A stretch of 64,000 nucleotides of DNA from Tubulanus polymorphus (lineage: Eukaryota; Nemertea; Palaeonemertea; Tubulaniformes; Tubulanidae), in contig NC_134029.1 in assembly GCF_964204645.1 (NCBI RefSeq), positions 21,284,450 to 21,348,449 on the forward strand. Direction: 5' to 3'. Within the stretch, counting starts at the first letter, position 1, and each line of letters begins with the position of its first letter. Both the position numbers and the translations under genes were made by a program. Shown piece after piece: positions 37,101-64,000 of the stretch. A model generated the notes under the pieces. The model had not been told where the DNA came from, searched no databases, and worked only from the letters and a program-made list of their open reading frames with translations.

Positions 37101-40100
37101 GTATTGTTCTCATTACCCGAGCAATGACGATCTTCAACACGAAATCATTTTGTGCGTCGGATATTTCACCGCTTTAAACCAGGACAATCAGGTAGATTTC
37201 TTGCCTTTCAAGTCCGTCCTTCACCTTTTCAGGCTGTTGATTTCTGTGTTAGTCGCTTAAAGTCTTGCCTTAGTTCCATTGTTTAAGGTTAATCTTTAAG
37301 ATTAAATGACCAATTTATTTGACTCCAATTTAATTCGTTACTGTTGGATTCTCCTGAATTAGTGAATCTTAGTTCTAAAATTTGCGCCAGTCTTGGCTTT
37401 TTTTATTTACAAATGGCACTCAGGATTTCCTGATCACACGCGGCCAGTACTCAAAAATTATTTAGAGTTAGCCGATGGACGGTTGACATGGTGACAATTA
37501 AAACTTCATTATTATTTGCAGCCGCGCATAAGTATTTTGCCATCAGGAAGTGCTGACACCTTCAGGGCGAATTTCCAACTAAACTAACGTCGTCTACTCG
37601 TTCTCAGATGGCCCTCTATAAGTTGTATTGTTATTTTCGAGTTTTTACACGCTCTTAATGTGTCATTCTTCCCCATTAAAAAAAAGACAACTTTTCGAAT
37701 GCTTGTATTGTGCATTAGACGAGTATACTTGACCGGCGTTCGAGCGATGCGCGTTCAGCGATCTGAACGACAACTTCACGTCAACATTTCCCGTACATCG
37801 CGACTTTTTACCCCATTAGAGTCGAGTTATAACAAGTTCAGTTCGTGTCTCCGAATCCAGCACAATTATGCTTGTATTATATAGGCCTATACGGTACACA
37901 TGTAATTATAGCTTCATGTGGTAATATTCTTTTAATAATAATGATAATAAGTCTTAATTTCGTACAAAAAGTACAGACTACAGGACGAAAAAAAGAGAAT
38001 ACAAAAGTGCAAAAAAATACTCATTCAATTGGAAAAACGTATTTACACAATGAATTATTCAAGGACATAGATTCAAGCTACGTGTTGGCTACATGACTCA
38101 GCAGATATACAGCAATGGTTGATTAGGTCTTTCATCTCATATTTGCTAAATTGAAAGTCAGGGGATGGATGAAACAGTACGTAAACTAAGTCAAAAATAT
38201 GCTGGGCTGCGCAACTGTGGGTTTAAATTCAACCCTTTACTAGTTATCAGACAGCCATTTTGATAAATTTTGTTACCTTTCGATAAAATATCTAAATGGC
38301 CTATTACATAGCGTGCTAAACTTGATCAATATCCACTATGGGTAAACATCGACTAGTTATTATCATTATTATTACAACTACCGTAATTTAACTTGCTGGT
38401 TCATTCATTTAACGTTTTGTTACATTGGTTGAATTCTAGTACCTACTACTAACATACGATTAATTATCACCTGACAATCCTCTAGTGGGAGGGTGGTCAT
38501 CACCTGGCTGGGGGTATTATTCCTGGTACGAATTACCCGTGAACTAAGGCCCATCGTAGGCGTTACATTAGTTAAATCCTAAAACCGCCAAAATTAATTT
38601 TCACCGCACAATCCTCTAGAGTCCTGGGGGTCGTCACTTCTGGACTGTGGCTGTTGGTGGTATCATTCCTAGACCCTATGAAAATGACCCTACAGCGTGA
38701 AAAATCATTTTTTCGTCGTGCGGAATTTTCAGTAATATGAGATAGCGAAACTCTGTGATAGTGATACAATAAACAGTGATTATAAGGCCGAAAAATTAAT
38801 ACCTTGTTTCGTGACAAGGTATCGTTTTTGTTTAGCCTAATGTATAGTTTTTATACAGGTTCTGCAAATGTCTTAATGAATTACGACGATATTTTGTATA
38901 TATTTTCAGTTATTCATTCAGTCTGGCCAGCCTCCGACCGTGTTGCAGCAGTTGTGTTCGTTGCCGTTCCAGTATTTCAGCGACCCGAAACTGATGAACA
39001 TACTTTATCCGACCCTCATCGCCTGTTGCTATGACAACTCGGCCAACCGTGCCATTCTCGAACACGAGCTCAGTTGTGAATTGTTGGCGAACTTTTTGGA
39101 GGTGCGTATGTATGGTAGATAGGAAATAATTGAATTATCGCTTGCTCGATGCGTAACACGTAACCTTATGAATTCTTTACTGATGGAGGAACTGTAAGCA
39201 TGTTGGTTATAAGAGGTTCGCAACTTTGACGATTCAGCGTAAAGAAGGACACGCGATCGATGGTTCGCGGCTTGTAAGATTTTTGTTGAAGGAATGAACC
39301 GGTCTTAAGTGAGAAACACGTTCAAGTAAAACATCTAGGTCATATATTTGTTTATTAGAACATAGCGATATTCAGTGCAGCGATATATATCCACCGATGA
39401 ATGTGGATTTCATATAAGCGGCTATCGCAGAAGCGTTTTTGCCAGTGTCGGATTAGGACCGCCCCAGCTGTTCGCATCAGCGTCAAATGAGTCCGTGTAT
39501 GTTTGACTTAAGCACGGGTCAAATTATATCCGGTGATCGCTAATTCTTGGTTCTGGAAGTGACTCACCTCACTCGTTTTGATAGTATTTTAGTGTTGAGT
39601 GAGTGGTTTACTTGTAAATGCAGTTATAACAGGGTGGCCACTTAGCTGGAAATCAGGGAAAAGTCAGGGAATTTTCTAATCTTAAGAATAGTCAGACAAT
39701 AGTCAGGGAATTTTGTAAAAAGCTAAAAATCAGGGAACAGTGCAGGCAATTTGTTGATATTGCTACCGTTATATCGTGCGTAAAATCAAACAGTTTCTGT
39801 GAATGTGTCACGTACGTATTTGATCGTGTTAATTGATTGGATTCTTAGCAGATCTGGAAAAACAACGTGCATGCCAGGGAAAAGTCAGGGGGAAAAGCAT
39901 GTCAACTTAAAGTGGCCACCCTTTATAAGCCACAGGTCTAGTCCGGGTCAAATCATCCCCACGTGAAACCATGGCTAAAGAAACCATGGCTAAAGAACGT
40001 ACAACTTTCATATTAAGTTTCTTGGAAGGATAAAAGTTCTGTTACGAGTTGAAACAGGATAGAGTGGGTGACTGGCTGAAACGACGCGAGTTGATCAGGA

Positions 40101-46100: not shown

Positions 46101-49100
46101 TAGGATCGATGTTACGATTCATCGTTTCATATGTATCTATAGCCGGTGGTTTGATTATGATGTAGAATATCTGAATATGCCTGTATGATATTAAATGATA
46201 ATGATGATGTTTGTTTTTATGTAGTGTCATTCTTTTGACAGACTCGAAACAATGTTTTACATAAAACAGAGTAAAGACGATAAAAATAAGTCAATATAAA
46301 ACAATACACTGCTTATAAAGTTGTGATTACACGTGAGTCAAGTGAGTCAAATTTGGCCGAGGACGCGTTCACATGTAAACCACTCACTCGATACTTAACA
46401 ATGCTTAAACGAAGCAAAGTGCGACATTTTCGGAATCAGTTGCATAGCACGCAATAATTTGGCTTGGGCCTGGTCCGACGTTTTTGGTGGCCAATTCGCT
46501 ATCTCGCCTAGATTTTGGCAAAAAATTCAATGAAGCAGGACTCGCATGGCTAGATTTAGAGCCTATGTTCTTCCTTGGAATTGGTTTACAGAGGATTGAC
46601 TTATCCAAACCTGAGCGTAGTTGACGGCGTGGGAGTTCGGATCAATATTTAGGTGCTGTAGACAATTTTTTCATTGGTACTCGGAAACTTTGAATCATTT
46701 TTCAGAAATTTACATTCACGCCTCGCCAGACGATATAAGCCGAGAATCGCGAATCGCATGTGTCCACGGTGAAGCGAATACTTGACGCGTTTTATCCTTG
46801 GTTTGATATTTGCTCGGCGTTTTCTGTACGCGCGCCAGCGACAGAGGGGTGAGGGTTGCTGTTGATGTCACTAGGCAAGAATAAAGAGTGACAGCCAGCG
46901 CTGGTTTCTGACTCAAGTATAATTAGTCAACGGACTGTGTTTTAAAAGCCCTCCATTACTGAACCATTAGTAACCTAGGATAAATTTGCTTTCATATCCT
47001 TTCCACGTTCTGCGTAGACACTAAATAATATAGCGCGCGCCGGCGTACAGCGGCGAAATAACCATATCTGTATTAAGCTAGCTCGTACAGAACAGCCCCG
47101 CGCTATCTTCGCATTACCGCTTATTTTCGACGTCGGTAGATTTTCCTCGGAATCGGAAGCCCGTGCCTTGGAATTCATTCCTAAAACCCGCATGAAATTC
47201 CTATAGAGTTCGATATCGAAGTCGATTCCGGTCGCGCGTACGTACGGTCTCGGGGGCTTATTCGCGACGCGCGCGAAAATTGCCGTCGCGCGAATATTTC
47301 CAGCCGAGATTGATATGATTTTGGTGAAAAGTAATTCTATCAATGATAAGGCCATAAAGCGTTTCTACCGGGGCTAACGTCATCTCTCGCCGTAGAATAA
47401 CTACAATATACGGGCTGTGTAATGCACTGCGACAATTGGATTCGTCGACATCAAAAACAAGGCGCCAGACATAAAGATAATATGATGTCTTTATGACTGT
47501 TGTGTGTGCTGTTATTTCTATGCAATCCGATTAGTAAAATGTACCTTGGTAAAATGCGTTCGTTTCGTCAATTTTTATCCTTGGAAATCGGAAATATACC
47601 GGTTATTTGAATAAGGCATTTGCGCGGGTTAGAATGTCGTGTTCGCGAATTTTGTTGTTTGTTTGAAAACGTCGAAGGATGTTTTGCGAGGAAAATATTG
47701 CGTGATTTATTTTTTTTTCATCGCGTTTGTTTGAAATCTATTTTTGAAATTCTAATCGAAAATTATGAAATTCTATTTTCAGGAAAAAGATCTAGAATGT
47801 CAGCAGGCTAAATTAACGCCGAGCACTAATGGTAAAAAAACGAAAAGTCAAGGTGAGTTGTCAGATATGGTACAGCGAAATAAAGCTTATTCTATCCAGC
47901 CTGTGTGGTCTTTTCTTAAATTCTTGGTGCAGGGAATTCTACTAAAACCATCAAATTAAAAAGAATAATTTTTTTTCAGTCCTCTAGTCTATTTATCATA
48001 ATCAAAAAAAAAGTTTATCTTGTATGTGATTAGAAACGATTTTTGATAGATTTTCTTCTATCTCTAAAAAAAAAAAATTGATTTTTGATTTGAATTTTTC
48101 CCGTTCTCTCCATTTTAAAATGCCCTTGATAGAAAAAAAGATTCATATCGATTTTCCTTCACCCTTCAATTTTTTCTTGAATGTGATTAGAAATGATTTT
48201 AGATAGATTTTCTTCTACTACCAAAAAAAATTATTTTGAATTTTTTATTTAAATTTTTCTCCCTGTCCCTACATATTGAAATGCCCTTAATAGAAAGAAA
48301 GATTCATATCGATTTTCCTTCACCCTTCAATTTTTTTCTTTAAAAAAATCCGTACTCCTAGTGATTAAATGGGATCTTAGAAAAATATATTCACGAGTCG
48401 ACTTTGAATTTTGATCGCGTCACAATTCGGGCTGCCGTGATTCAGTGACGCGGCGCGGTTCTCGATTAATCATCCCCCATCTGGACTGAAATAAAAAACG
48501 CACGTATCTAATCAAATTAACATCGTGTAATACTAGACCAAAAAATCTGCCATCTTAAAATCTCATTACGTGTAATTCTATCCGCGGTCTTACTCTCAGT
48601 CGCGTTGAGAAACTGCCTCCGGTTTGAAATCAGTGTCGGCCTCAAAACTGACGATAATAATTGATGTTGTTTTAATCACTGTCGTTCGTTCGAGGAATTT
48701 TTCACCGAAACTTAAGACGACGCGATTATTATTATTATTATTATTATTTTAGCCAGGAGTCGGTGTTCTGTTTCTCCGAATTGAAAATACCCGGCTGTTT
48801 ATTAGCGCACAATCAGCGGGGTATATTTTTAAAAAAAAGAAGATTTTAAAATCTTCTGTTCGTAATTCTGTTGTTGATCATTTCGGGTCCCGACCTTTTT
48901 TTTTGTCGTCGACGCCTCCGGGGCGTTTTTGGGAAATTCAATACGGTTTTGCCGTCTGTTAAATGCCCGCCGCGCGTTTGACGAAGTTTCAATCTAAAAC
49001 GTCGGCCATTGTTCGCGTGAATTTACTCCGAAGTCCAGTAGTGATTTCATCGCATTCTCGCGGCGCGATAAGTGGATTGTTTTCAAATATATTCAGGTAC

Positions 49101-52100
49101 ACCCTCTATACAAACGGCCGGCGATGTTTTCGGATATCTGTGAATTAGACATTTGTTGCGATTGTGCGCGCAACAATTTAAAACTTGTTAAAGTGCCGTT
49201 GAATAAAATGATACATTAACTGAATGTAGTTCTTTATCGGTGTGTTTTGTGTTTTTTTTAACGCAGATCGCACGCCCGTTGTCGGATGGAATTAAAAGTC
49301 GTTCATTAATAGGCGTGGCGTGTTGAGTTGCATTAGATTAAAATGAGTCTGTCCAGCGGCGTTTCCGCCCTCGGGGGTCATGTTTTCGGTAATTAGCGCT
49401 GGGTGGACGGTTTTTCGTCGTTGTGCCCGCTGATTTTGTAAAAACATTTCCACGTATCGAGTAACGGCTTGGCGCTCGTCGCTCGCTTACACGTGTCTCC
49501 TTCCTCGTCGCCATCGGTCTTAAAAATCCGTCGAATCTTCTAGTCGAACTTCGCTGGAAAATACAGAAAAGGCTGACGATTTGATCGAGCGAAATATAAA
49601 AATCATACGTGCGTTAATATTCGTACTAGAAATAGACGAAGAAAACTGAAGTTGAAACTTACGCCGCGCACAAATAACGCATCAGATCTGTGAAGTCAAA
49701 CATCGTATATAAAACGCCTATGAAGATAACATGTATATGTTGCTCAATGCTTGGTATTGTCGACACTCGGCAATGTAATGAAAATAATATGATATGTATT
49801 AAGGTTCAATAAAGTAATTTTGAATTTGAACGAATTGGATCGACCGGCAACAACCAATCGAGCCCCAATATTGATGACGTGGCGCACATCCACCCACACA
49901 CTATCCTAATCGCCATTGAAATCCACCATTGAAAAATACATAAAAATTCTTTAAATAGAAATTAAGAGTCACGCAATTAAATAAAGTTCAAAATATTCAT
50001 GATATTAATTGTTATTTTGAAACGCCAATACTGATGACGTAGTGAACATCCACTCACACAGTACCCCTTAGATAACGCATAGTTGCAGTTCCTATGGTGT
50101 CAAAAATCATCTCTGTCAAATCTTCGAGTTTGTAAAACTGTTTGAAAAACAGTTGGCTTTTTTGTCGAAAAATATGTTTTCGGTTGTGGAAATGAGGCGC
50201 CGATTCTTGACTTCCACTTAATCACCGTCGTCGTTTTCATTCGTTTCGCTGATGAGTTCTAATTGTGATATTTATTTACGGCGCTATATCCCGCGCCAGT
50301 TGCGTTCAATCAGAAACGCGGGGGATGAAAAATTTCTCCCTCTTTCTCGAATGTTTGTTCATGGATTTCAGTCCAATATTGACCCGAGTTAAATTGGAAA
50401 GTATTCGGAGACCGAGCCGTTTCCCATTTCCAGCTGTAATTGTTATTTGTCCTCCTCGGTGAAATTCGCATTGAAAAAATCTGTTTGAATTTCATATCGC
50501 AGTCGAATCGTCTGATTAAACATCGCTGCTGAACTGATTGCAGCTGAAATTTACAAATTCATCATTCATTCGGTCATTACCATGAATAGACCTTCTTCTC
50601 TTACTTGAAGTTGACTTGGACCTTGATAGCCCCGCGATTACACGGAGACGATTTGACCTGGGCCAAATTGGCACTGATCAAGCCCGAGTCAAATTCGGCC
50701 CGTTTCTAGTTAGAGAGCGAGTTCGCACGTATAAAGAGCACTAAGCAATGTTTAAAGCGAAATGAGTCACGAAATTTGGCCCGGACCAAACACTAAACTG
50801 AAACTGAAACTGCGATCACGGCTTATATTGCAAATATCATCGTTACCAGCAGAATTAAGGTTATTTCGCCTTAAAGTTTTTTTTCGCACGTTTTAGGTGA
50901 AATCAATTGAAACTGGATATTTTTAAACTAAAAACTACCGTGGAATTTTATGTCGGCGAGATGATCCTTGCAGGCAACGCCTTCAGATTTTCTGGACCTT
51001 TTACGTAAAATCAACGAAAAATGGCAAAAATCTTTTAAAGGTTAGAATTACCTTGTTAATCAGGAGTGCTCGATAGTGAATATTGAAACCCGAGTTCAAC
51101 TCGCTCGGTGGTGATTCGAGTCTACTGAGGTTTTCGACGAGTGCGATTAGTGTGTGTGTGACTGTTAAATACTGTATGTGTTTGAGGAACTCTCAATCAT
51201 CTGATAAGCCGTACACAAATATTGAACAGCACCTCTCTGTCTTCAGCGCCGGCCACTGACTGATGAAGCATCATTAATTAATGACCTCTCAATCCATCTC
51301 TCTTCCCTGTCTCTCTTTCTGTCTCCAGTTTGCGGTTCGTTTGAATGAATCCGATTTCTCCTTGATGTCGCGTCCCCTCGGTATCGAATAGCCGACTTTA
51401 CGAACGGCACATGCGACCAGCGGATTTCTTGCGTCTCCGTAAAAATGTCTACAGACTTTTAACTTTTTTACAGGCAATTCCAAGAAATAGTCGCCAACTT
51501 CTTTGCAATATATATATATGTCCTTTACATTTTCTATTGTTAATTGTTTTGGTTCGTCTAGTCACAGGGGGTACTGAATACATACAAATATATAGTACCC
51601 GGGAATATCGGATGGTCTAAGCTACTGTTGACCCCCCAATCTTAAAAAACGAGCACCCGTGTTCTTGCATGGCCGGTGTAACGGTGAATTTCTTTCCGTG
51701 GCCTGGTCGTTAGAGAATACTTGCCGCATTACAAATCCCTCGGTTATTGTAAGATTGATGTCGGATTTTCGATTAGTGGAACCTAAGTAACGCAGTCGTT
51801 TTCTTCTTAATGGATCTTCGTTTTGAAAAAACTACTAGGTAGCGATATGGAAATGCATTAGTTCGAGGAGCCATTTACTAGAGCTGCTGCTGCCACCGCC
51901 TTAAGATTCGCTCCGTACAAAATGCATTAATTTGACGCCTTCAGTAGTTTCGTCGAAAAAATTCGCTGGCGAAATAAGACGGGGTAGAGTTATATAGCCG
52001 GGTATAGAGTCAGGAGCGATTACCATGGCGATCATTGTGTCGTTTTTCATCGACTAGATCATTAGCGGACGAAAAATAGTTTGCCGTTTGAAATTCCGAT

Positions 52101-55100
52101 CCTTTGCGCCGAGCCCGGGAATCAAATACATTTGTAGAAAATATAACGCAGCGCGCGCGCGCCGGCGCTAATGGAAATATTAATATTTTGATGGCGAATA
52201 TAATCGCTTACAATCAGGCTTCTATTCATCGGTAGCGGCTAATGGATGTATTTGGGTGGTTCGCACGTGTTTCGGGCGTCTGTGGCGACTTAAAGCAATA
52301 AACGGCGATGTGACGATAATGACGACGACAATTGAATCGTACGGGCGAAAATTCGGCGGATTTTAAGCGATTCTACAATCGACACCCATTATAAGTAAGT
52401 CTCGTCGAGTCTTTGAAATCGTACGCTTTTATTTCGAAATGCTTTTAATATATTTGTTTAGGGTGTGACTTGCAATGGATTTGATCGATCGCGGCATTAT
52501 GCGCGCCGAGTATTTCTGAATTTATGTATTTGTGAAATATTTTATCCACGGTTGTGAATTTGATGTAAAAAAAGAAAAAACAAGAAAAGATCGCCCAGGT
52601 TCATTGTTCCAGATTACGGTTTATACATTTTTCTTTCAAATTTCTCTGGAACTGAAAAGTCATTCGGTGTAGTTTTATCGAATATACAAAATAAAGCCAA
52701 AACTATAAAGGGCTACAATATCTATTTTCAGAAGTTTTTAGCTTTTATTTGCCACAGTTTTTATGTTTACCCCGGCGGCCAGTCCGGACACTTAATTTTA
52801 ACCGAGCTAGGCGATTAAGATTTAGAATCGATACATTTTCTTCAATACCGTTTTGCTCATTTTCTATTTTTCTTTAAGTTTGTGATATTGTTGTGTTTAA
52901 ATCTGGAAGGTCGCTCGCTCCTGTTCCCTGTTTAAATCAAGCTCGAACTGAGCAGATTTGTGTTAGAACATCCCCGTGCCCGGTTCAATTGTGGCTTAGA
53001 CTTTCGACCGATCTAATAGACCTTCATTTTCGCTGAATTCTTGTTTTAGAACTGATTTCAAACACAATTCTCAATTCATCCGTTATTTCATTTTCATCAT
53101 TTCCGACGCGAACAAAAAATGAGTAACCGGTTCTTAACTGAGGCTGAGCGGAGGTCGGTTGCATGTTAGACGACAGTTTGTTAGGAATGTCCACCTGTCA
53201 TCGTAAATATCTTAACAATCACAACCGGCCCTGTGATTACCGGCATTGCCCCCAGGGGGTGCTGGTTAATGAACGTTGATTAAAGGCGCCTGGAGCGTTG
53301 GTCATTACTCCGCCCCCTAGCTGCGGGGTCCGGGGGCCTTGTTGTAATGTTGACCGTTTGACGCACGCTCCACTAGCGAATGATAGACGATTTATCACCA
53401 CTATTTATAAAAGCAGATGATGTTTCGGACGGGCTTTGTGTCGCAGAAGTCGGTTCTATTGTGCGGAGATAGCGATCTTGTGTTTGCGGTGACATTTCTT
53501 ACGTAAAGTCTTGTCCTCCCCAAAAATAATTTATTTCGTCGTTTTCTCATTTCCTTCCGAGCAAAAATTCGGATGCCAGTATTTCCTATAAAATCGGAAT
53601 TAATATAGAAAAAAACATTTTTTGTTAATCAGCTAGGGTTACCAGTGAGTGTGTATATATTTATATTCTTCTTTTCAATCGAAAATTATATCTAAAAATG
53701 TGCGTAAAAATCCGGCGATCGGGCAGTGCTGCCACCAGCTGTGAGAAGCTGGCACTAAAACGAGCATCACGCTGACACAAATCTTAGCTGACACAACTTG
53801 TACATAATATCTTAGCTGAACATATCATAGGTTTATATTCGATACACCTGAAGAGTCTCGTGGTTTCTGAAATTATCTTAATCATGAATCCAATACGCAT
53901 TTCGCTCGGTAGACCAGCACTATACACCAGACGTAAAGAGAATCGGGTGCATTTTTTTTGGTCGTCGACAAATCGCCGGCTTAAACAGGAGGCCCCGAGG
54001 ACAGGAAACCGAAATCTGGCGTAATGTCTCCCGATTTGCGGCGTATTTTTCTCGAGCGAAACTAAAAGCGAAAATGAAAATGGTTGCATGTTTGAAACGC
54101 ATGAGTGACGAGGCCCCGCGGCTAATATCCCGTTTAACGTCGTCATAAACATTGTATCCAGTACAATTAATGTTCCCGAGATGACATCTCGCGACAAATT
54201 ATCGCGACTATTTTGCGGTAATTATCCCGCTAGAAATGCCCGGTTATTGTCGGCGGTGGAGTTATCGTCGCGCGAAGATTGCTGGCTAGTTTCGAAAATG
54301 TCGTCGAGCCCTCGGGGGTTTGTTGCGTGGGTTCCTGCGCGCCTAATCAATCCTTCAACTCCTAATAAACCCGCACCTATAGACTTTTCTTCACATTTCC
54401 ATGCCCTACTCTCGTTCGTTTTCACTGGAAATCGTCAACTGCACAAAGTCACTCCCCTCCATATAACACGCATTAAGAAAAAGTACATATAAAACTTCCG
54501 TTGTTAATTTCTTATCTAATGAATTTCGGGATATGTTCTTGTCGATCCAACCCAGGGGTTCCCATTATTACAATTACCACCAATTTCTCTTATCCATCTC
54601 TTTAACACGTCTAACTCCTCTTCCCACAGTCACTCGGTAGCCCTGGCTATCTCTATACGACGACTCTCTATCTGTATACGACGACTCTTTATCTCTATAC
54701 GACGACTCCCTATCTCTATACGACGACTCTTTATCTCTATACGACGACTCCCTATCTCTATACGACGACTCTTTATCTCTATACGACGACTCCCTATCTC
54801 TATACGACGACTCCCTATCTCTATACGACGACTCTCTTTCTCTATACGACGACTCCCTATCTCTATACAACGACTTTCTATCTCTTTACGACGACTCTCT
54901 ATACGACGACTCTCTCTATACGACGACTCTCTATCTCTATACGACGACTCTCTATCTCTATACGACGACTCTCTATCTCTATACGACGACTCTCTATCTC
55001 TATACGACGACTCTCTATCGCTATACGACGACTCTCTATCGCTATACGAAGACTCTCTATCTCTATACGACGACTCTCTATCTCTATACGACGACTCTCT

Positions 55101-58100
55101 ATCTCTATACGACGACTCTCTATCTCTATACGACGACTCCCTATCTCTATACGACGACTCTCTATCTCTATACGACGACTCTCTATCTCTATACGACGAC
55201 TCGTGGTTCATAGTCCACAAACGGTAATTTTGCGTAGAGCAAAAAAGAGTGCATACAAAATGATGTGATGCTACTAGACTGACACAGAAAACAATGGCTC
55301 TAAGAATATAAAGATGGAGAACGTAGATGTAGAGATGTAAAATATTTCAAACCTTTTCTAATATGTAGTATTTAAGTTTCTTTGAGTTGCTCCTATATGG
55401 AGTTCAAAAGTCGACAAAGTTATAGATATTTTCGTGTTTTTCTGTAATACGATTTCGTGTGCAGGTTTCATGTCAGAAAAAAAGGAACTATGTTCTTCAA
55501 TCTCCTCTCCTGTCTTTATGACATCGGTTCTATGTTTAAACCAAGGTATTTTCAGGGTGGAGTTGTTCCTATTCGATATTTTACGATAGTTGACTTGTGG
55601 GGAATATGATCTCTGCTGTAGTTATTGCCAGTTGAAACTGATAGCGTGCAACTTCGCCGCTTCAGTTTAGCGTCGTTTTCTTTTGAGAATTCCCCGGGTG
55701 AAAGTCAAACATATATTTGCGTCTATATAACGGGGCTATTTTTGAAAATGACACATCGAATTGCCGGGGTGTTTATGCCGGTATATGCGCTCGCGAAATG
55801 AAATCTGATCCGAGTTCACCCGACGTCGCTGTAACGATCACATTAAAAATCGCTGATCAAATAAACCCGATTGATTCTCGACACCGATTCGTGTCCGGTT
55901 ACCTTTCACTATTCGCTATTTCCAATTCGATTTTCTCACATCAGCTCGGTCGCTATCTGTGTAGACGATCTATATAAAAACTGATGTAATTGTGTATAAA
56001 TAACCGATTCTGCAATACTAAACCCGGCACCTAATCGTCTGCTATTACCCTTCTAAACATCTCTACACTCCGTCTCGAATCAGCGAATTTTCTAGATGAT
56101 ATTTCGTGATTTTATTTTCCCTCGTAACTCGTATTTATATATTATTTTTAGCGACTGTTATATGTATTCTGTCACCCCTTTTTTACATGGAGTTTAGTGA
56201 CGTCATCCGTCGTCGTCGGAAGAAAAAACCCGGAATCGATCTGAAACGCGATAAAAATTGTTTCATTGTTTATGTTTACGGGTTCGTTATTAGATTTGAT
56301 CAAATGCGACACAAAAGCCGACGGTTTGCACGCGCGCATACTTCTAAATGCGATCGATCCCGGCGCTTTTCTGATATATATATATACTATCCTGGTACTT
56401 GTGACTTTTATTCGTTGGCCTCCAGCTTATATTCTGAAACGATCAATTCGCCTGTAATAACCGTTCAGAATATTCGCTAAAATTGCCACGTACATCCAAC
56501 ACCGTTTTCAACTATAGCGCAGTTTTCCAGTTTCGACCGCCAAAGGTGTTTAATTCTTTCGAGATTCCTAGTTCGATTATTTGTCGGCGACCTCGTGAAA
56601 TTTGCGGTTTATCGACTGTGATATGTGATATTTTCGATGTTATTTTGAGATATTACCACGATCGATGCTTGATTTTGGGTGTAGGCCTATTTTCTCAGGG
56701 TTGATAAACACAAACAAACAACGCGATTGATTCGTAATTCTTTTCCTGCGATTACTTGCAGGTTTAGATTGGTTTTTTCTGTCTCTCTCGACAGGGATGT
56801 ATAGTAGATTGTTTTTAAAAAAGCCGAACGTATCGCAGAGCTGAGAAATACTGATTTGATTTGTTAGATGCGTAGAGAAATACTGAGGGTTTTACTGTTG
56901 ATTACTGATTGATTTAAACAGAAATATGAACGATATTACTGAAGGTCTTACTATTGATTACTGATTAATTTGAACATTTTCTTTCATTTTTCAGTGAAAT
57001 GTTACTGAAAAAATTAAATTTGTTACTTATAGCACTTTTAAAAGACAGGTTGGCAGCACTGCGTATGCCTGGTTTTCGAGTGAGGCATATTTTGTTTCAC
57101 TGTTACAAATCGCCAATCATTTTGTTGAATTATCATTATTCTAACAGTCAGGTGTCAATTATCTGAAGTTAATGAATTTTTACGTTTTCACCGTGGAGGC
57201 TTCCACAAATTGTGGGTGTTGGCTGCCTGATGATTAAAACGTATAAAACATCTCGCCTATTTTGTTTATAACGCATCTCGCTTATCTGACCTGGAGGCAT
57301 ATCATCATCAGCGCTAAAAAAAACTATTCACCAATCCGATTTGATTCCGTGATTACGAAAAAAGAAATGTTTCGGGTTACATTAAAAAAGACATTTTCAT
57401 TTTCTATAGGTTTGAGTAACGGATCCGGGCGCTTTGTGTGGAAACTTCCGGCACCGCGCCTACGAACGATTTACAATTCCTCCCTCAGCAGGGATTCGAA
57501 CCTGATGGCATCGCGAGACTCAGCCACGGCATGAAACCCTGGGCGAACTTCAGTTAGCGGAGTTAGTCGACTTTATAGTCGTACTAAATGAAACCGAATG
57601 TCAGTTAGTCGAAACTATAGTCTTGAAATGGGACTGAGCCTGATCGCTCTAATACGGGCCTATTTCCAAGATGGCCGACACTATGAAATACTCGTTCGGA
57701 AATTAGTTCCGACTACTATTCGAGACATAGCTTCTAAAAACGAAGTTCGACCCTGTCTGATTTCAGTGTCAGCTATCTTGGAACTGTAAGTCTGGTCTAC
57801 GGCGACCGTGCTCGATATCGTGGTTCACTACTTCCGGCTTAGCAAATAGTCGGCTAACTCCGATAACCGAAGTTCGCCCTGGGTTTCGTGCCTTGGCCGA
57901 GTCTCGCCATCAGGTTCGAATCCCAGCCGAGGGAGGATGGAATTTATTAACGACGAATTCATCTACAGTTTCTCTAATAATTGTCATTAATAACGTTACA
58001 CCGTCAATAATTCAAACACGTCGACTCTATGCATGTTCAACCGCGAACAGATGGCCTCGGTAATTATTCATACGATATGATATACTGTTACAAATAGAAC

Positions 58101-61100
58101 GATTGACCAGTCGGTTCGCCCATGACCGATTGACCAGTTATATCATTAAGGTAATGAGTACCGTTGATTAGTTAGTTTTGTCAGTATCTTATGACTAATT
58201 TAAACCGCGGCCGATGCGCGCAGGGGATATGAGTCGACGGTCTTTGTAAAACAATTAACGTATATGACACTTTAGTCATTAACTCTACACGCGTGGACTC
58301 CTCGACTTCACGCGGAATCGCTCAATTCTGATGTATAACCTGTATTATGAGCTTGAAATCATATGCACCCTATCCTCCCTCGGCGGGCGGGGATTCGAAC
58401 TTCGTGGTATATCGCGACTGTCACCATGCCGTGCGCAGCTGAGTCTAGCGATACCATCGGGTTCGAATCCCTACCAAGGGAGGGCACGGTGAAATTTGCA
58501 TTGCATCCCCGATACATGTGTAAATCTTACGGGCAAACGGTAAATTCTCGATATATGCCATCTAGTGATTAATACACATGTATTAGCCGTATAATTCGCC
58601 TATGATTGAATTCGGGAGAACGAGGTTGATACATTTTAGGCGAATTTGGAGCGAAGACTGATTCGCTGCATAAAATCGCCGATATAACGATCACACGATT
58701 CTCACAATATATGTATTGTTTTCGTAAGTGACACAATGGGCGGATTTGGTAATCGCCGATTGAAAATTAGGCAATGATATCACTCGCGTCTCCTGGCACA
58801 CATGGAAAATTCGGCAGGCAAAAATCGAATCGCCGACTAAATTCGCCTCGTCCGTCGCGGGTTTAGAGGTTGGGCTTCGGAAACACGATTCTCACTCTGT
58901 CGCTCTCGCCACAACTACTGAATTGAACAGTAAGATCGGCTAATGTTTTATACATTTATTCCTCATAAATCATTTATTTCTCGAGTTATCCGGCGACTGT
59001 TCGCAGCAGCAGCGGCAGCCGCAGCCATTCTTCTATAAATGATCAGTCCAATTCTCGGGGTCTTGTCAGCGTCTGTATTTCAGTGTGAGTTGCATTAATT
59101 CCATTTACATTGAACAAAGAATGCTACGCTAGTTAAATCGTCATCGGTTGATTGGCCGGCTGAGATTAGACGAGAATCGAATCGTCGACGAGTCCGTGTT
59201 AATTCTGCAATTGTTTTAGGCGGCGGCGCGGGATGATGGAATGGTTGTCGGTGAGGTCGTCTTAGCGTACGGAGGCTGTTAAACAATTAGGCAGTGTTGA
59301 AATTTCATTAGTTCGCCGCGCGACGACAAATTGTGGGTCCACTTTGATGGTTTCGCGGACGTCGCAAATTGACAAGTCGACGAATTTGCGTCCGATAGAA
59401 TGTCAACTTCCAACCGATGGTGGATAGATTTGATATAGAGCAGCCGGGGTCGAGGGAAGCGAGTGGATGCAGCAAGGGTGGGGGGTATATTCGGCGTCTT
59501 GGAGAATGTTTATCTTTGAGGCATTTTATTTAGCAAATGGATTTATGTTTTATTTTTCATTGTCTGATTAAAAGTTCCCATAATGTTAGTCTTTCGGAGG
59601 ATCGGAATATCCAATAGGCCATTCCTCAAATATACCCACAGCCGGTTCTGGCTGGTTTCTAAATTGTTCAAACGAACTGGACCCGAAATTTCCAAAAGCC
59701 TTCCTTCGACTTGAAAAGAATTATGTAAATTCGACCGATCTGTACTTCACGATTTCCGATTTTGAAATCGAAGCCCCTGTTTCGTTCCAGGCACTGGTGA
59801 GTTTGTAGGAAATACAAATCTCAAATCGAAATTTATCAATCAATAGAATTGATACAAAGGGCCAATTCGCTATTTCGCAATAAGAAAAACCCAGTTCCTC
59901 GAATCCGCATGAGATCATCGATAAGATGACGGTCGTTTGAAATGTGTAAACGTCAATGTCGAGTCGTTTTATTTAGATTGGTGAGATCGGGGCCAATTCG
60001 TATTTTTGCTAAGTTGATTATGTTGAACTGAGTGATTATTCAGTGTATTCATTGTTTAAACTGCGTTCAATCTATCGCTACTCGTTCATACGATACTGAT
60101 CAAATTTCATTAGCAAATTTGCGCAGAAAGTTTAAAACGCATCAATCTCGTCGATGCTTCAGACTTTCGGTGAAGTCAATCTTCATTCATCTTCGAAGAC
60201 CAGGTTTTCAGCGAGGATATATCTATTCCGTCATTTCCACTGTCCGATTCTCGTCGCTCTATCAAATGAACATTACCCCGGAACATTCCCAATTATACGC
60301 TTTATCTTAAAACCCTTTTAAAATATAGCGCCGGGTTGAGGTCAACTCGTCAACGGAAGCGTCGGGTGCGCAATTTCGGTAGATGGTTGTTGGTTTACAG
60401 GACGACTTGACTCATGCTGTTGCTGCGGGACGTGAAGAGTCTCAGTATTTCTTCACGGTATCCATTATCGTCGGGCAGGTTTTTGAGTATGCTTGACTGA
60501 ATATCTGTTGTTGACGGACGTGTCAACACTAACTGTCGCCGCGCAGTATAAACTCGTGTCTATCAGTATAGCCGGGCTTTTTTTCTCTCTGTTTTTCGCT
60601 TTCTGCATCTCGTCTGCGCTGCTGGAACTGTCGAAGAGAGCTTTTAGCGAAGGATGTGGCGCATCGATCCAGTATTAAGTGTTCCATTAAAAATCCAATA
60701 GTTGCCAAACATGGAGTCGTTGCCGCCGTCGCTACTGCAGCGCGTCGTGTGCGAAGTTTGTTCCGTCTGACTTTCAGCTGATCGTCAGTCGATCGCAATA
60801 CTTCAATTCATCGATGTTTATCGAGGTTCGAGCCCGCGGTGGTTTTTAGCTTCCGGCACACCCCGATACCCGCCTGGTGTTGATATTAGCGGTTAGTATG
60901 ATTCGTTAAAACGCGTTCCCTCGCAAGTCATGATCCATTTACTATCTTCCCTCGCATGTCATGGTCCATGTATAACTCCCTTCCCTCGCAAGTCCTGGTC
61001 CAAGTACTCCCTTCCCTCGCAAGTCATGGTCCATGTACTCCCTTCCCTCTCAAGACCTGGTCCATGTACTCCCTTCCCTTGTAAGTCTTCATCGATGTAC

Positions 61101-63394
61101 TCTCTTCGTTTGTCGAGTCCGCGGTTGAAAACGTATATTAATTAGCGATCTCCACTAAAAAGACTATAGTATACTTAGTATACTGCTGAGGCAGAATTCA
61201 GCTGCCACGAATAAGAAGCGATATGCTGTGTATATGAAATGAGCTGAATTCGTTTTTACCGCATCGCGTATTCAATGTGCGGTTTTACTAGTAAAGCCGT
61301 GGTGTAATCTCCGGCGTGCAGCTCCACGCAATTCAATCAGGACCCCGAAATCCCAGGTATATGCTTCAAAACCATTAACGTAATGAGAAATCGGTGCATG
61401 GTGTCACAGACGGCGAGAAGTCGGCAGTCAGACGATAGGGTCGGGGGGAGAGTGCTGCAAACGAGATGGATTGAATTTGAAACCATCAGTGAAATGTCGA
61501 TCGTTTTACGCAGTTTCCTTAATCGCTGGTATTTCTATTTGTCATTATGAACTCTGCACTGTATCGCTAAAAGTAATTTTTTTTTTGACGCCGTGAAAAC
61601 TGTTACAACAATGTTTATATACATTGATACCGATCTAGTATGCGGGGTTCTGTGTGAGCCTGTGCACTACGTCATCAATATTGGCGTTTTAAAAGAACAA
61701 TAACAATCCTGAATTTTGGTCTTTATTTTGTAATTGAATATATTTCATGATTCTTATGTTCTATTGAATTTATTTCTTTCGAATAGCTAGTTTTGAATGG
61801 ATGTGTCCTATACGTCATCAATACTGTGTCTAGCCTGTTTAGACTGGTTGCCGGTCAATTCAATTCAATTGTCGATAATCCTTGATATTATATTATCGAT
61901 AGTATTAGGCAATATATATGTGTGTTATTTTTCTTCAAGACGTTAATTAATAGACCTTCAAGTTAGTTTTCTTGTAAAGTTCTTCAATGACTTTTTCGAA
62001 CTGTATATCGTACATAAATCATTTTTAAGGTGGTTTTTAAGCCGATCTGGCGTCGATTGCGTTCGCATTTTTATTGATAATTAATGCGCATCATATCCTC
62101 TAGATTTCCATCCATCAATTGTTTCAAGTATCGCAAGGACGATTCATCATGTCGGCGAACGCGTTCTCCAGGTACAGATTGGAGAATCTCGCGAAATCTC
62201 GCGAGAACTCGGAACGATCATCCGGTTCGCTTCGCGGTGTCTCCAGTCGCCGCTCATTATCTTCACGATCGGACCCTTGAGTAAAATGACAAAAATCAAC
62301 AAAATACAATTAATTATGCAAAAAGAAAGCTTTCGCGCCGATGTATTAGTGATTATGATGCATATTTTATAAGCGCCGAATGTTTATGTCGGTGAAGTCG
62401 ACGCGCGCACAAGATTTGCCTCGCCGCGAAAGTTTACAGAAACTGGTAACTGGTAAAGGATAAAAAGACAAAGAGCTTTTCTCTATTTTATGAAGCAAAG
62501 ATAGATGAAAGCTTATCCGTAATACTTCAATCGATGCGGTTAGAAATGTCGGGAGGTTCTGATATTTTTTTTCACTTAGCGACAGTTGCGTTGGTGTATG
62601 ACTTTATTGAAATAAATATCTCTAGGGTTTTTGAAAAATATGTTCGCTACGTCATTGCGGTGTTTTGTCATCGCGCTATTTTTGCTTCGTAAATTCAGTC
62701 ATAAATGGACGTTTCACAACAAAGGTTCGGTAGTAAGGGAAAGTTTCCAGCGATGTAACGGTTAAGAGATAGATGCTCGGACCCCGGGGGTATTGGGGGC
62801 TATTCTGCGGAAATCTGAACGAAACCTATTCTCAGTTGTTACATTAACGTATACCCTCTATTGTGTTCATCAGCTGTCAGTTTCAGTATTATGTCTCACA
62901 GTCCCTGCGGCCCGCTATCTCGCAGATAGGGCACCTTTAATTGCATCAGTAAACAGCCAGAGGTGAACATGTCACTTTCACCAGCAACATTGTTCACGGC
63001 GAAATCCATTAAAGACAAATTTCAGTCAACACTCTTCACAGTAACGCTCCGATATTGTGTGATTGCAGTTCGTTTCTGTGTACATAAATTAGTTTTAAAT
63101 GGTTCTCTATAAATCCAGCCTCTTGGCTTTCGGGAACACCGGTGTATTGACTATAAGGAGGAGAGTGATGTCTGGCTTTACATCGAGTGTCGCGCCTTGA
63201 CTCAGTCAGGGTTTACGTAAAACCAACGGTGAAAGATACACACTTCGGTGCACAACGTACACGTATATTAATCAGTAAGCTTTAATATTTGATGTTTTTC
63301 AGAAATGAAGGAATGGGAAAGCAGGATGTCTCTGGTCGCGCGATTTCCTCAAGATTACTGGAATAAAGTGCAACTGTACTTCCGCGAAAAATGA
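19159..63394 (+). CDS. SCAPER: SCAPER, S-phase cyclin A-associated protein in the ER, complete
   Basis: SCAPER is known as a cyclin A/CDK2-binding protein of the endoplasmic reticulum, also linked to cilia. 28 exons: 19159-19323, 19483-19594, 20162-20457, 20845-20945, 21028-21168, 21838-22001, 22104-22804, 23336-23506, 23689-23734, 23831-24066, 24635-24775, 24862-24963, 25047-25100, 25287-25511, 25917-26075, 26651-26752, 27650-27780, 32395-32460, 34434-34560, 34739-34851, 34956-35079, 35369-35601, 35914-36060, 36481-36724, 37039-37191, 38910-39101, 47783-47852, 63303-63394. All introns are GT-AG and in phase; the product is 1535 aa, near the ~1400 aa of the human protein. In order: basic Ser-rich N terminus, SCAPER N-terminal domain (about 156-228), disordered middle, acidic stretch and long coiled coil (about 561-938), a C2H2 finger (C932, C935, H948, H954), helical C-terminal half, and last exon ending YFREK. 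Additional small in-phase exons in the two huge introns cannot be excluded. Confidence 0.95.
20162..20945 (+). CDS. SCAPER: SCAPER N-terminal conserved domain exons
   Basis: Exons 20162-20457 and 20845-20945. After a basic Ser/Arg-rich lead, the segment starting [20 protein letters not shown] and continuing [18 protein letters not shown], then [20 protein letters not shown], is the hallmark that identifies SCAPER; it is helical and about 70 residues long. The second exon starts exactly after the ECR codon at phase 0. Confidence 0.93.
20634..20746. mobile_element. Family E palindromic repeat
   Basis: In SCAPER intron 3. Begins TGGCCTGGTTTTATAGACTG and ends CAGTCTATAAAACTGGGCCC, near-perfect inverted ends, with a second inner inverted pair (CCAGGGGTT / CCAGGGTTA). 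113 bp, no coding capacity. Only one copy was seen in the window, so MITE status rests on structure alone. Confidence 0.55.
21204..21342. mobile_element. Family A palindromic MITE, copy 1
   Basis: In SCAPER intron 5. GGGGCCAGTTGCACAGTCG at the left, GACTATGCAACCGGCCC at the right, with GACTTAAGTCCAAAAGTGGTC and its inverse inside; almost the whole element can fold on itself. Other copies are at 29370-29511, 29513-29639, 30710-31130 and 42183-42317. Confidence 0.75.
22104..22804 (+). CDS. SCAPER: SCAPER large exon 7 (disordered region)
   Basis: The largest exon of the gene (701 nt). It opens with [20 protein letters not shown], a conserved-looking DGWETV motif followed by a Lys/Arg/Ser/Asn-rich, probably disordered region, and ends [10 protein letters not shown]. 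No domain other than SCAPER itself was recognised. Confidence 0.9.
22851..23012. repeat. Three 19-bp palindromic motifs
   Basis: TACACCGCACTGCGGTGTA at 22894-22912 is a perfect palindrome with one central base. Near-copies are at 22851-22869 (TACACTGCATTGCGGTGTA) and 22994-23012 (TACACTGCACCGCGGTGTA). They start 47 bp after the exon 7 donor. They may be the ends or subterminal repeats of a small element, or binding sites for a dimeric protein. Confidence 0.7.
23213..23290 (-). repeat. tRNA-like sequence, degenerate (SINE head or tRNA pseudogene)
   Basis: Read on the minus strand it has an A-box-like TGGCCAAGATACC, a TAGTGGTTTAAGC D-arm-like segment, a long variable region, and B-box-like GTGTTCGAATCCTGG. 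This layout is that of a class II (Ser/Leu-like) tRNA. The 5' and 3' acceptor strands do not pair, so it is not a functional tRNA gene. It lies 46 bp before SCAPER exon 8. Confidence 0.5.
23336..26752 (+). CDS. SCAPER: SCAPER coiled coil and C2H2 zinc finger exons
   Basis: Exons 8-16. Exon 8 is strongly acidic ([19 protein letters not shown]). Exons 10-15 give a long charged helix rich in Glu, Lys, Arg and Gln (about residues 650-915), a clear coiled coil. Exons 15 and 16 join a C2H2 finger, CHVC in exon 15 and [11 protein letters not shown] in exon 16: C932-x2-C935-x12-H948-x5-H954, the matrin/U1C-like spacing. The intron therefore splits the finger between its Cys and His pairs. Confidence 0.92.
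24091..24502. mobile_element. Family B MITE-like repeat, copy 2
   Basis: In SCAPER intron 10. Begins TGTCCCTACGACTCCTTGGC and ends near GAGGGGACCC. Interior segments match 9441-9795 (AAAATGCCCGAAAC, then AGTGATGCAGATTGCTTCC), with extra sequence in the middle (TAACCCTAATGGTAACCATT). Confidence 0.7.
25722..25818. mobile_element. Family D MITE-like repeat, copy 3
   Basis: In SCAPER intron 14. TGGATCCAATTTCACAGGTG at the left and CACATTTGTGGAACTGGATCC at the right, with TGAGTTGG and its inverse inside. Same short form as 7609-7704. Confidence 0.65.
26131..26470. mobile_element. Family B MITE-like repeat, copy 3
   Basis: In SCAPER intron 15. Begins GGTCCCTACGACTCCTTGA and ends CTGTAGGAACC. Compact copy closely matching 9441-9795. 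Confidence 0.72.
27875..28085. mobile_element. Family C hAT-like MITE, copy 2
   Basis: Begins AGGGCGGCCTCTTTCCTGG and ends AAATGGCCACCCT. Interior has GTCAGAGAATTTTG and TCAAATGTTTCCATCTATG like the other copies. Somewhat shorter and more degraded than 39631-39922. Confidence 0.65.
29370..29639. mobile_element. Two tandem family A MITEs (copies 2 and 3)
   Basis: Copy 2 spans 29370-29511 (GGGGCCAGTTCCGTGGTC ... GGAACCGGCCCC); copy 3 spans 29513-29639 (GGGGTCAGTTC ... GGAACCGGCCC). They abut with one base between them, so one probably inserted at the edge of the other or they share a target site. Confidence 0.7.
30500..31130. mobile_element. Family A fragment plus internally amplified family A element
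   Basis: 30500-30608 is a right-end fragment of family A. 30710-31130 is a full element (left GGGGCCTTTTCTTAAGTCG, right AAGTGGCCCC) stretched to ~420 bp by about seven copies of an internal 47-bp unit between about 30775 and 31100 (unit contains GTTGTAAGATTGGCTATAG and AACCAAAATGAGCTTAG). Normal copies are ~140 bp. Confidence 0.75.
31434..32215. repeat. 20-bp C-rich minisatellite, about 39 copies
   Basis: Unit CGCTCGCTACCCCTCCCCGC. From 31440 to about 32060 it runs in perfect 20-bp register with point variants (C/A and G/A at fixed positions), then becomes irregular. The + strand is pyrimidine-rich; the complement has GGGGAGGGG in each unit and could form G-quadruplexes. It lies in SCAPER intron 17, about 180 bp before exon 18. 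The 246-aa ORF over it results from the repeat and has no coding support. Confidence 0.95.
32395..39101 (+). CDS. SCAPER: SCAPER C-terminal helical region exons 18-26
   Basis: Nine exons (about residues 1016-1482) with alternating Leu-rich helices, for example [61 protein letters not shown] and [19 protein letters not shown], consistent with the armadillo/HEAT-like helical C-terminal part of SCAPER. A hydrophobic run ([17 protein letters not shown]) could be mistaken for a membrane segment but fits a buried helix. Introns here are mostly 0.1-2 kb. Confidence 0.93.
36751..36830 (-). mobile_element. Family F pogo/Tigger-like element, truncated copy 2
   Basis: In SCAPER intron 24. Reading on the minus strand it begins ACAGTGGAACCTCGTTACG and continues to TTCGTTATAGCC, as in 13658-13832, but only about half is present. 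Confidence 0.5.
39631..39922. mobile_element. Family C hAT-like MITE, copy 3 (best preserved)
   Basis: Left end AGGGTGGCCACTTAGCTGG, right end AAAGTGGCCACCCT. Flanks GTTATAAC and TTTATAAG agree at 6 of 8 bases, suggesting an ~8-bp hAT-type target duplication. No coding capacity. Confidence 0.75.
41196..41432. mobile_element. Family C hAT-like MITE, copy 4
   Basis: Left end AGGGTGGCGACTGACCTGG, right end TTAGCCACCCT; flanks CTAAACC and TTAAACG share TAAAC. Internal TCAGGGAAAGTCGGGGAATTT-like repeats match family C, but much of the centre differs, so this is a subfamily. Confidence 0.65.
41520..41541 (+). repeat. G-rich run
   Basis: Ten or so G, AA, then G runs and GAGG. Could form a G-quadruplex. 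Its exact length is likely to be unreliable in assembly. Confidence 0.7.
42011..42529. mobile_element. Family B MITE-like repeat, copy 4, interrupted
   Basis: Left end GGTCCCCACGACGC, right end CTGTATGGACC. The interior matches 9441-9795 on both sides of a family-A element inserted at 42183-42317, so the B element is older than this A insertion. Confidence 0.75.
42183..42317. mobile_element. Family A MITE, copy 5, nested inside family B
   Basis: Starts GGCCGGTTCCATAGTCAAGG and ends ATGATTATGGAACCGGCC. Flanked on both sides by CCAGG (42178-42182 and 42318-42322). The paralogous B element at 9441-9795 has a single CCAGG at the equivalent place (GGGACCAGGATATTTT), showing the pre-insertion site. 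The duplication is at most 5 bp; the exact border is ambiguous because of the G/C runs. Confidence 0.8.
43290..43590. repeat. Family I dispersed repeat
   Basis: Contains repeated GGGCCAAATT/AAATTTGGC motifs, GAGCCAAATTTTAGCATGG, TTTAGTATTGAGTGAGTGG, and CATGTGATCGTGACTATTG. Related segments occur at 39458-39620, 46320-46600 and 50630-50825. The last has roughly inverse ends (GCGATTACACGG / CCGTGATCGC read inverted), so a MITE or foldback origin is possible. Copies are diverged. Confidence 0.5.
44692..44716 (+). repeat. (CAT)n microsatellite
   Basis: About eight CAT units in tandem. In one frame it reads as a His run, but there is no splice or family support for coding. Confidence 0.85.
45523..45665 (+). 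repeat. Family G dispersed repeat, copy 2
   Basis: TCTGTACTTTGAATTTCGATT leads into TTTCAAAATCGAATCCCCTG, GGTGTGGTCAGTTTGTAAGG and CTATTCTAAGATAAGAAAA. Same segment order as 59740-59890 and 7780-7910. Confidence 0.6.
46320..46600. repeat. Family I dispersed repeat, copy
   Basis: GTGATTACACGTGAGTCAAG, CAAATTTGGCCGAGG, AACCACTCACTCGATACTTA, TAATTTGGCTTGGGCCTGG. Inverse orientation of parts of 43290-43590. Confidence 0.45.
47783..47852 (+). CDS. SCAPER: SCAPER penultimate exon 27
   Basis: 70-nt exon encoding [20 protein letters not shown] and KSQ, phase 0 in and phase 1 out, isolated between 8.7-kb and 15.4-kb introns. Acceptor TTCTATTTTCAG and donor GGTGAGTTG are both strong. Its phase 1 end joins exactly to the last exon (G|AA, Glu). 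Confidence 0.85.
48021..48345 (+). repeat. Two-copy tandem duplication, 157-bp period
   Basis: ATGTGATTAGAAACGATTTT at 48024 recurs as ATGTGATTAGAAATGATTTT at 48181, and GATTCATATCGATTTTCCTT occurs in both copies. AT-rich with poly-A runs. Diverged by scattered substitutions and indels. Confidence 0.8.
49865..50065 (+). repeat. Family J repeat, two direct segments with CRE-like motif
   Basis: CCAATATTGATGACGTGGCG then CACATCCACCCACACACTATCC at 49865, and again AACGCCAATACTGATGACGT then GTGAACATCCACTCACACAG at about 50020. The inverse of this unit is at 61641-61830. TGACGT (CREB/ATF half site) is conserved in all four units. Confidence 0.6.
50630..50825. repeat. Family I dispersed repeat with roughly inverse ends
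   Basis: GCGATTACACGGAGACG at the left and CTGCGATCACGGC at the right, with GACCTGGGCCAAATTGGC and ATTTGGCCCGGACC inside. Shortest and cleanest copy of the family. Confidence 0.5.
53247..53326. promoter_or_regulatory. Two CTCF-like motifs in opposite orientation
   Basis: TTGCCCCCAGGGGGTGCTGG (53246-53265) matches the CTCF core CCAGGGGGCGCT at 11 of 12 positions on the + strand. CCGCCCCCTAGCTGCGG (53310-53326) reads CAGCTAGGGGGCGG on the minus strand, also close to the core. They are about 45 bp apart. CTCF is present in bilaterians generally; occupancy is inference. Confidence 0.45.
53403..53411 (+). promoter_or_regulatory. TATA-like box downstream of CTCF-like pair
   Basis: ATTTATAAAAGCAG, TATA-box-like (TTTATAAAA), 77 bp after the second CTCF-like motif. 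A start site would fall near 53430-53440. No ORF follows, so any transcript would be non-coding or a short SCAPER 3' form. Low confidence. Confidence 0.3.
54643..55202. repeat. 21-bp minisatellite, about 27 copies, with a dimer higher-order pattern
   Basis: Unit CGACGACTCTCTATCTCTAT plus A. Between about 54680 and 54810 units with CTCTTTATC and CTCCCTATC alternate, a 42-bp dimer. The centre (54890-54920) has a shortened unit, and the right part is homogeneous. Since 21 is a multiple of 3, minus-strand ORFs (RDRESSY repeats) stay open by chance. Confidence 0.95.
57479..57937. mobile_element. Foldback element with tRNA-like ends
   Basis: Left arm 57479-57575 and right arm 57848-57937 are inverse copies of about 90-100 bp (GGGCGAACTTCAGTTAGCGG versus inverse GGGCGAACTTCGGTTATCGG). 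The outer part of each arm contains, read outward, TGGCCGAGTCTCG then AGGTTCGAATCCC, resembling pol III A and B boxes of a Ser/Leu tRNA. Interior is unique, non-coding. Confidence 0.65.
58374..58484. mobile_element. Compact foldback element with tRNA-like ends
   Basis: CCTCCCTCGGCGGG then GGGATTCGAACTTCGTGGTA at the left, and the inverse ATACCATCGGGTTCGAATCC then CTACCAAGGGAGGG at the right. Same end sequence as 57479-57937 but with almost no interior (111 bp). Confidence 0.6.
59740..59890 (+). repeat. Family G dispersed repeat, copy 3
   Basis: TCTGTACTTCACGATTTCCG, TTTTGAAATCGAAGCCCCTG, TTTCGTTCCAGGCACTGGTG, GTTTGTAGGAAATACAA and TTCGCTATTTCGCAATAAG. Same order as 45523-45665. Confidence 0.55.
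60919..61100 (+). repeat. 31-bp minisatellite, about six copies
   Basis: Unit contains ATGGTCCATGTACTCCCTTC and CCTCGCAAGTC; first and last copies are diverged. The 71-aa ORF over it reflects the repeat. Confidence 0.85.
61641..61830 (-). repeat. Family J repeat, inverse copy
   Basis: GGTTCTGTGTGAGCCTGTGC then CACTACGTCATCAATATTGG at the left and TACGTCATCAATACTGTG at the right: the inverse complement of the units at 49865-50065, again in two segments separated by AT-rich sequence. Confidence 0.6.
63303..63394 (+). CDS. SCAPER: SCAPER last exon 28
   Basis: Acceptor GATGTTTTTCAG at 63291-63302, then [20 protein letters not shown] and [10 protein letters not shown], stop TGA 63392-63394. The phase (G|AA) fits exon 27 exactly and the residues suit the conserved SCAPER C terminus. 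No AATAAA was seen between the stop and 64000, so the poly(A) site is a variant signal or lies beyond the window. Confidence 0.88.
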
Positions 63395-64000
63395 ACACAT
63401 ATCTTTTTTACGCATTGATATTATCATTACCCGATATACTATCATAAACGACCACGACTTGGTGGTGAAAGTAAATATTTGTAATCTACATTTCATTTAA
63501 GAAAAATTCGAACTGTTAAAAGTCTGTTATATTGATGTACATTATATATAAATTTGTGAATATTTCGGTGTGATTTAACTTGTCGGTTTGTCGGGTTTCT
63601 ATGCGAACTGCTGAATGCATGTGCTAATTCGGAATCTCACGAAGAACCAGTTGTATGCGCATAGCTTGTAAAAATGGTTGTACTGTCGAAATTAGTATTA
63701 GTTTAAATCATATGTTTGTTTTATATTTGTTTGAAATCTTGATCCTGCTGGCAGGTCGTAAAGCTTATTATTATCGATATATCTATAACTGACTCTCATT
63801 CTCGTAAACGTCACCGTAAATCTGTAAGGTTGTTATTTCTGATTTTATGTTTGTACCACGCCATTGTACATATCATTAGATAATTTAATTTGCTTTAGTA
63901 CTTAGTGAAAATACAGATAAATTCTTTTTTCATTTTGCTAAATTGAGATCTTCAGAATTTTTTTTTTGGATCGTCGATCTGAAGAGTTACTTCATCACGC

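Follow-up and report, generated by a model that had tools for sequence, protein, structure and literature searches.

The 64-kb stretch of DNA analysed here (the window, C5:21284450-21348449, in a genome of 267.8 Mb and 77 contigs) holds SCAPER, and its neighbour beyond the window end is, judging by its domains, a LIM-LIM-homeodomain Islet gene. Going by its sequence, the locus is a new lophotrochozoan, chromosome-scale case of the known Islet-Scaper microsynteny. We consider it reasonably probable that the window contains the SCAPER half of an ancient tail-to-tail Islet-Scaper pair forming a genomic regulatory block, with Islet enhancers that probably also occupy the last two SCAPER introns. 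This adds a case to a pair whose linkage, dating back to early animals, is attributed to Islet enhancers. In a locus this compact (~100 kb), the shares of introns and gap in the regulation are directly testable.

The literature agrees with two claims of the earlier note on this DNA. On deep conservation, the excerpt of PMC5429095 describes Isl-Scaper linkage across metazoans, lost in Nematostella and C. elegans. The enhancer from the sponge Scaper region said to work in a vertebrate is found in the excerpt of PMC10176946, where a sponge Islet enhancer from the Islet-Scaper region drives Islet-like expression in zebrafish without sequence similarity. In these excerpts, both papers tie the linkage to enhancers. 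ISL2 and SCAPER also stand together on chr15 in one table row of the excerpt of PMC11321361. Among the titles and abstract openings, no earlier paper on Islet-Scaper in the present genome was found.

SCAPER and its long 3' introns

SCAPER is a + strand gene that starts at about 20.2 kb, with PF16501, and reaches its stop codon at 63394. The SCAPER_N domain (PF16501) at ~20.3 kb marks the single SCAPER place in the genome by this family, and 11 translated stretches between 23.4 and 36.7 kb match human SCAPER (PDB 8bpo chain s2) in order; these matches define the 5' coding part (20155-39101). The joined C-terminal exons match the same human chain with an E value of 3e-35. With PF16501 and human matches along the gene, this is a SCAPER orthologue, as in the known microsynteny.

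Exon 26, just ahead of the first of the two long introns, ends at 39101 in phase 0 (GAG/GTGCGT). It is followed by intron 26 (39102-47782, 8,681 bp), a 70-nt exon (47783-47852), intron 27 (47853-63302, 15,450 bp), and the last coding exon (63303-63394), which is preceded by TTTTCAG, matches the end of human SCAPER and carries the stop; the borders of both introns, which are candidate Islet regulatory DNA, follow from splice sites and frame. The numbers 26 and 27 are those of the earlier note, as the exons of the 5' part are partly mapped. The 70-nt exon has TTTTCAG upstream and GTGAGT downstream and runs from phase 0 to phase 1. Of 39 AG-70-GT candidates with one or more open frames, it was the one picked, on the fit of its splice sites and phase. 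When the three 3' exons are joined, the C-terminal frame stays open until the stop at 63394, and skipping the 70-nt exon gives an immediate stop. In the comparison with human SCAPER, this exon falls in a weakly aligned linker region.

Splice sites and frame therefore agree with the earlier claim that some 24 kb of the gene lie in its last two introns, split by a 70-nt exon: together they make up 24,131 bp of ~43 kb. The companion claim, that the other introns are mostly well under 2 kb, holds with one exception: nine of the ten separations between the 11 human-matching stretches are < 0.9 kb, and the tenth is a third long stretch of 7.7 kb (26758-34429), absent from the earlier note. Reading by eye places a likely exon near 27.6-27.8 kb, and once this is subtracted ~6.6 kb remain with two tandem arrays inside. 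These are a 47/141-bp array at 30773-31100 and a 20-bp array of ~39 copies at 31443-32214, where the window reaches its highest GC content. Another array, of 21 bp with 27 copies and 90% matches, lies in intron 27 at 54647-55202 and is open in several frames on both strands. Upstream of SCAPER, the window contains a Shroom-type ASD2 domain at 8405-8806 and the RRM exons of an RNA-binding protein at 12454-13655.

The neighbouring Islet gene and the gap between the pair

The LIM domains of the neighbouring gene lie at C5:21401671 and 21397350 and its homeodomain at 21393233, all on the - strand. Joined, the LIM-LIM-homeodomain sequence has ISL-1 as its best solved-structure match (4jcj, E 8.8e-72; 1bw5, E 5.6e-33). 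The three domain exons are clearly the best Islet-like places of the genome, the worst of them at E 1.6e-32 and the next place elsewhere at E 1.9e-15. A further exon (C5:21382697-21382873) encodes the LHX3-binding ISL segment as in structure 2rgt (E 4e-11), and a terminal exon placed from splice sites (C5:21380224-21380451) ends the protein. The exons found span C5:21380224-21401841 on the - strand, so by domain and structure matches Islet is adjacent to SCAPER, on the opposite strand and on its 3' side. At L004:4197-4424 (- strand; C5:21382646-21382873), readthrough of the final splice donor of Islet would add a short, different C-terminus that ends in a stop, which may represent a form with a retained intron.

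The earlier note had advised a downstream search for Islet and named its absence near SCAPER as one outcome that would speak against the idea; the search found the gene. Placing it just beyond 64 kb was right as to adjacency and generous as to distance, since from the window end it is 31.8 kb to the stop codon and 44.8 kb to the homeodomain.

The two genes stand tail to tail, and their stop codons are separated by 32,380 bp. This gap (C5:21347844-21380223) begins at window position 63395, has its first part inside the window (63395-64000), and continues through three 10-kb pieces (L001-L003) and the start of L004. A six-frame scan of the three adjoining pieces, covering 30 of 32.4 kb, matched 0 Pfam families, although such a scan is blind to genes that lack Pfam domains or whose domains are divided among short exons. 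At this level, no gene intervenes between the two, as in the known Islet-Scaper microsynteny. From the start of SCAPER to the first Islet exon found the distance is ~100 kb, and from the long introns to the same exon it is 54 to 78 kb, with the promoter further away.

The locus thus resembles the known Islet-Scaper pairs in having one SCAPER adjoining Islet, 30 kb of gap without a Pfam domain, and some SCAPER introns far longer than others. It differs in that here mainly the last two introns are long and the gap measures 32.4 kb, whereas in the excerpt of PMC5429095 it is numbers 10, 17 and 21 of the 25 sponge Scaper introns, not the last ones, that carry enhancer-like marks. It also resembles genomic regulatory blocks with bystander genes: a developmental regulator is linked to an unrelated gene, and the long neighbourhood has no known domains and, in its gap part, few repeats. 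A further likeness is the mouse element mm2285, whose reporter activity is consistent with Isl2 according to the excerpt of PMC10917818. Like the candidate introns it lies at this gene pair; unlike them it is called intergenic there, and the likeness is one of gene pair.

Candidate places of the Islet enhancers

In the block that we propose, distal Islet enhancers would lie across the 32-kb gap and within the introns of Islet itself, with further ones probably in the last two introns of SCAPER, and all of them would reach the Islet promoter from its downstream side. A rearrangement parting SCAPER from Islet would then impair Islet, which would tie SCAPER to it as a bystander. Selection on these enhancers may be what maintains both the intron length and the linkage of the two genes. 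On balance, we expect at least some Islet enhancers in the last two SCAPER introns, and the gap would be an equally good or better place for them.

As a control for repeat load, we used 20 random 10-kb pieces as a 200-kb sample of the genome and defined cover as the share of a sequence that matches this sample. The random pieces, each against the other 19, had a median cover of 4.5% (range 0 to 98.5%; 0.000 in two of 20). Cover was 11.2% in intron 26, 4.2% in intron 27, 0.0% in the gap and 1.1% in Islet from its stop codon to the first exon found. For comparison, cover was 1.2% and 0.0% in two pieces of the Hox cluster and 0.0% in one piece taken upstream of the window. The intron loads are ordinary. 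Zero cover is unremarkable for one 10-kb piece and more notable across 32 kb.

First-look repeat candidates, which are rough counts, numbered 6849 (8.7 kb) and 5116 (15.4 kb) in the two introns and 55, 229 and 216 in the three 10-kb gap pieces. Whole-genome searches of these pieces, with ~40 candidates scored per 10-kb piece, showed that the gap is repeat-poor, not repeat-free: short repeats lie at L001 1-195 and 6992-7194, L002 4048-4305 and L003 7334-7505. A simple repeat lies in the gap near 94.6 kb of the joined sequence.

This contrast bears on the closest alternative, in which the Islet enhancers behind the linkage sit in the 32-kb gap and the Islet introns, and the long 3' introns of SCAPER have none. 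The lower sample cover of gap and Islet body than of the introns, the few first-look candidates in the gap, and the intergenic label of the mouse element near Isl2 and Scaper in the excerpt of PMC10917818 all favour it. Against it stand the short repeats that the gap has too, the enhancer-like marks inside sponge Scaper introns in the excerpt of PMC5429095, and a CpG observed/expected ratio (CpG o/e) at least as Hox-like in the introns (1.45, 1.49) as in the gap (1.30). We regard this alternative as possible but rather unlikely.

The same ratio was 1.35 in the Islet body, 1.43 and 1.46 in the two Hox-cluster pieces and 1.06 in the piece from upstream of the window. It was 0.92 and 0.98 in noncoding-rich DNA upstream of SCAPER and 1.24 in the other long stretch of the gene. 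The 11 intron bins (median 1.42, lowest 1.29) and the 16 gap bins were higher than 26 GC-matched random bins with a median of 1.06 (Mann-Whitney P 5e-5 for the introns, P 0.005 for the gap), both P values being too small because neighbouring bins are not independent. The matched bins came from 15 of the 20 random pieces, five with a repeat cover > 0.4 having been dropped ahead of the CpG comparison, once the cover was known; the dropped pieces had ratios of 1.73, 1.40, 1.04, 0.66 and 0.49, one above the introns and one close to them. A high ratio was also found outside the introns, and along 124 kb the change point at 33 kb was not a significant border of a CpG domain (permutation P 0.066).

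Under the block that we favour, we counted as supporting the intron ratios, nearer to the Hox pieces than to the random bins, and the gap cover of 0.0% against a random median of 4.5%. Counted against it were the intron covers of 11.2% and 4.2%, the absence of enrichment for all 13 motifs considered below, the lack of a significant CpG border, and the 54 to 78 kb to the first Islet exon found, which is long for a 268-Mb genome.

The long introns thus have a ratio like that of the two Hox pieces yet are not repeat-poor, while the gap is. The CpG ratio suggests that germ-line methylation may be absent from this DNA, as it may be from developmental loci. A wider and more speculative form of the block, which we put forward tentatively and think doubtful, would make the last two SCAPER introns, the gap and Islet one Hox-like chromatin domain of ~80 kb, unmethylated in the germ line, with its enhancers split between the introns and the repeat-poor gap. 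If true, CpG o/e could serve to trace ancient regulatory blocks where no close relative of an animal has been sequenced.

Drift and repeat insertion could also have lengthened the introns by themselves, with the proximity of Islet a coincidence. Both introns do contain tandem arrays as well as short dispersed repeats, and tandem arrays abound too in the other long intron stretch of SCAPER, at a greater distance from Islet. All repeat evidence combined, however, covers 14.5% of each long intron, and therefore the repeats found do not explain the intron length; ~85% is unique at the sensitivity used, which old or low-copy repeats would escape. The CpG ratio of the introns also exceeds that of the GC-matched random bins. 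We judge this account improbable, and less likely than enhancers confined to the gap and the Islet introns.

Long introns often house nested genes, noncoding RNAs or regulatory DNA of their own gene. Such content here is very improbable: an unannotated intronic transcript would be compatible with the results, but the 64-kb window had no Rfam family at the gathering threshold and no tRNA with bacterial settings, and Pfam matched none of the four longer intron ORFs tested.

Motif counts and the Hox cluster used for comparison

We counted 13 consensus motifs in the introns, the gap, the two Hox pieces and 15 random pieces, and in Markov shuffles. For none of the 13 did the introns stand above the random pieces. 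The E-box CAGMTG occurred 25 times in the introns against 11.1 in shuffles, and its density there (1.04 per kb vs 1.27 in random pieces) marks this excess over shuffles as genome-wide. In the gap, CCGGAAR had 18 sites spread along its length (0.56 per kb vs 0.16 +- 0.12 in random pieces); we claim no enrichment, because this is one of 39 comparisons.

The Hox pieces come from a cluster in which ten Hox homeodomains lie in one run on one strand (L007-L016, C6:5318050-5635000), a single C6 run that holds 10 of the 12 homeodomain pieces. By their signatures, its members look like Post2, Lox2, Lox4, Antp, Lox5, Scr, Dfd, Hox3, pb and lab. This set argues against a bryozoan, given the Hox losses that PMC13326412 describes in that phylum, and from Post2 to lab it corresponds to a lophotrochozoan Hox complement.
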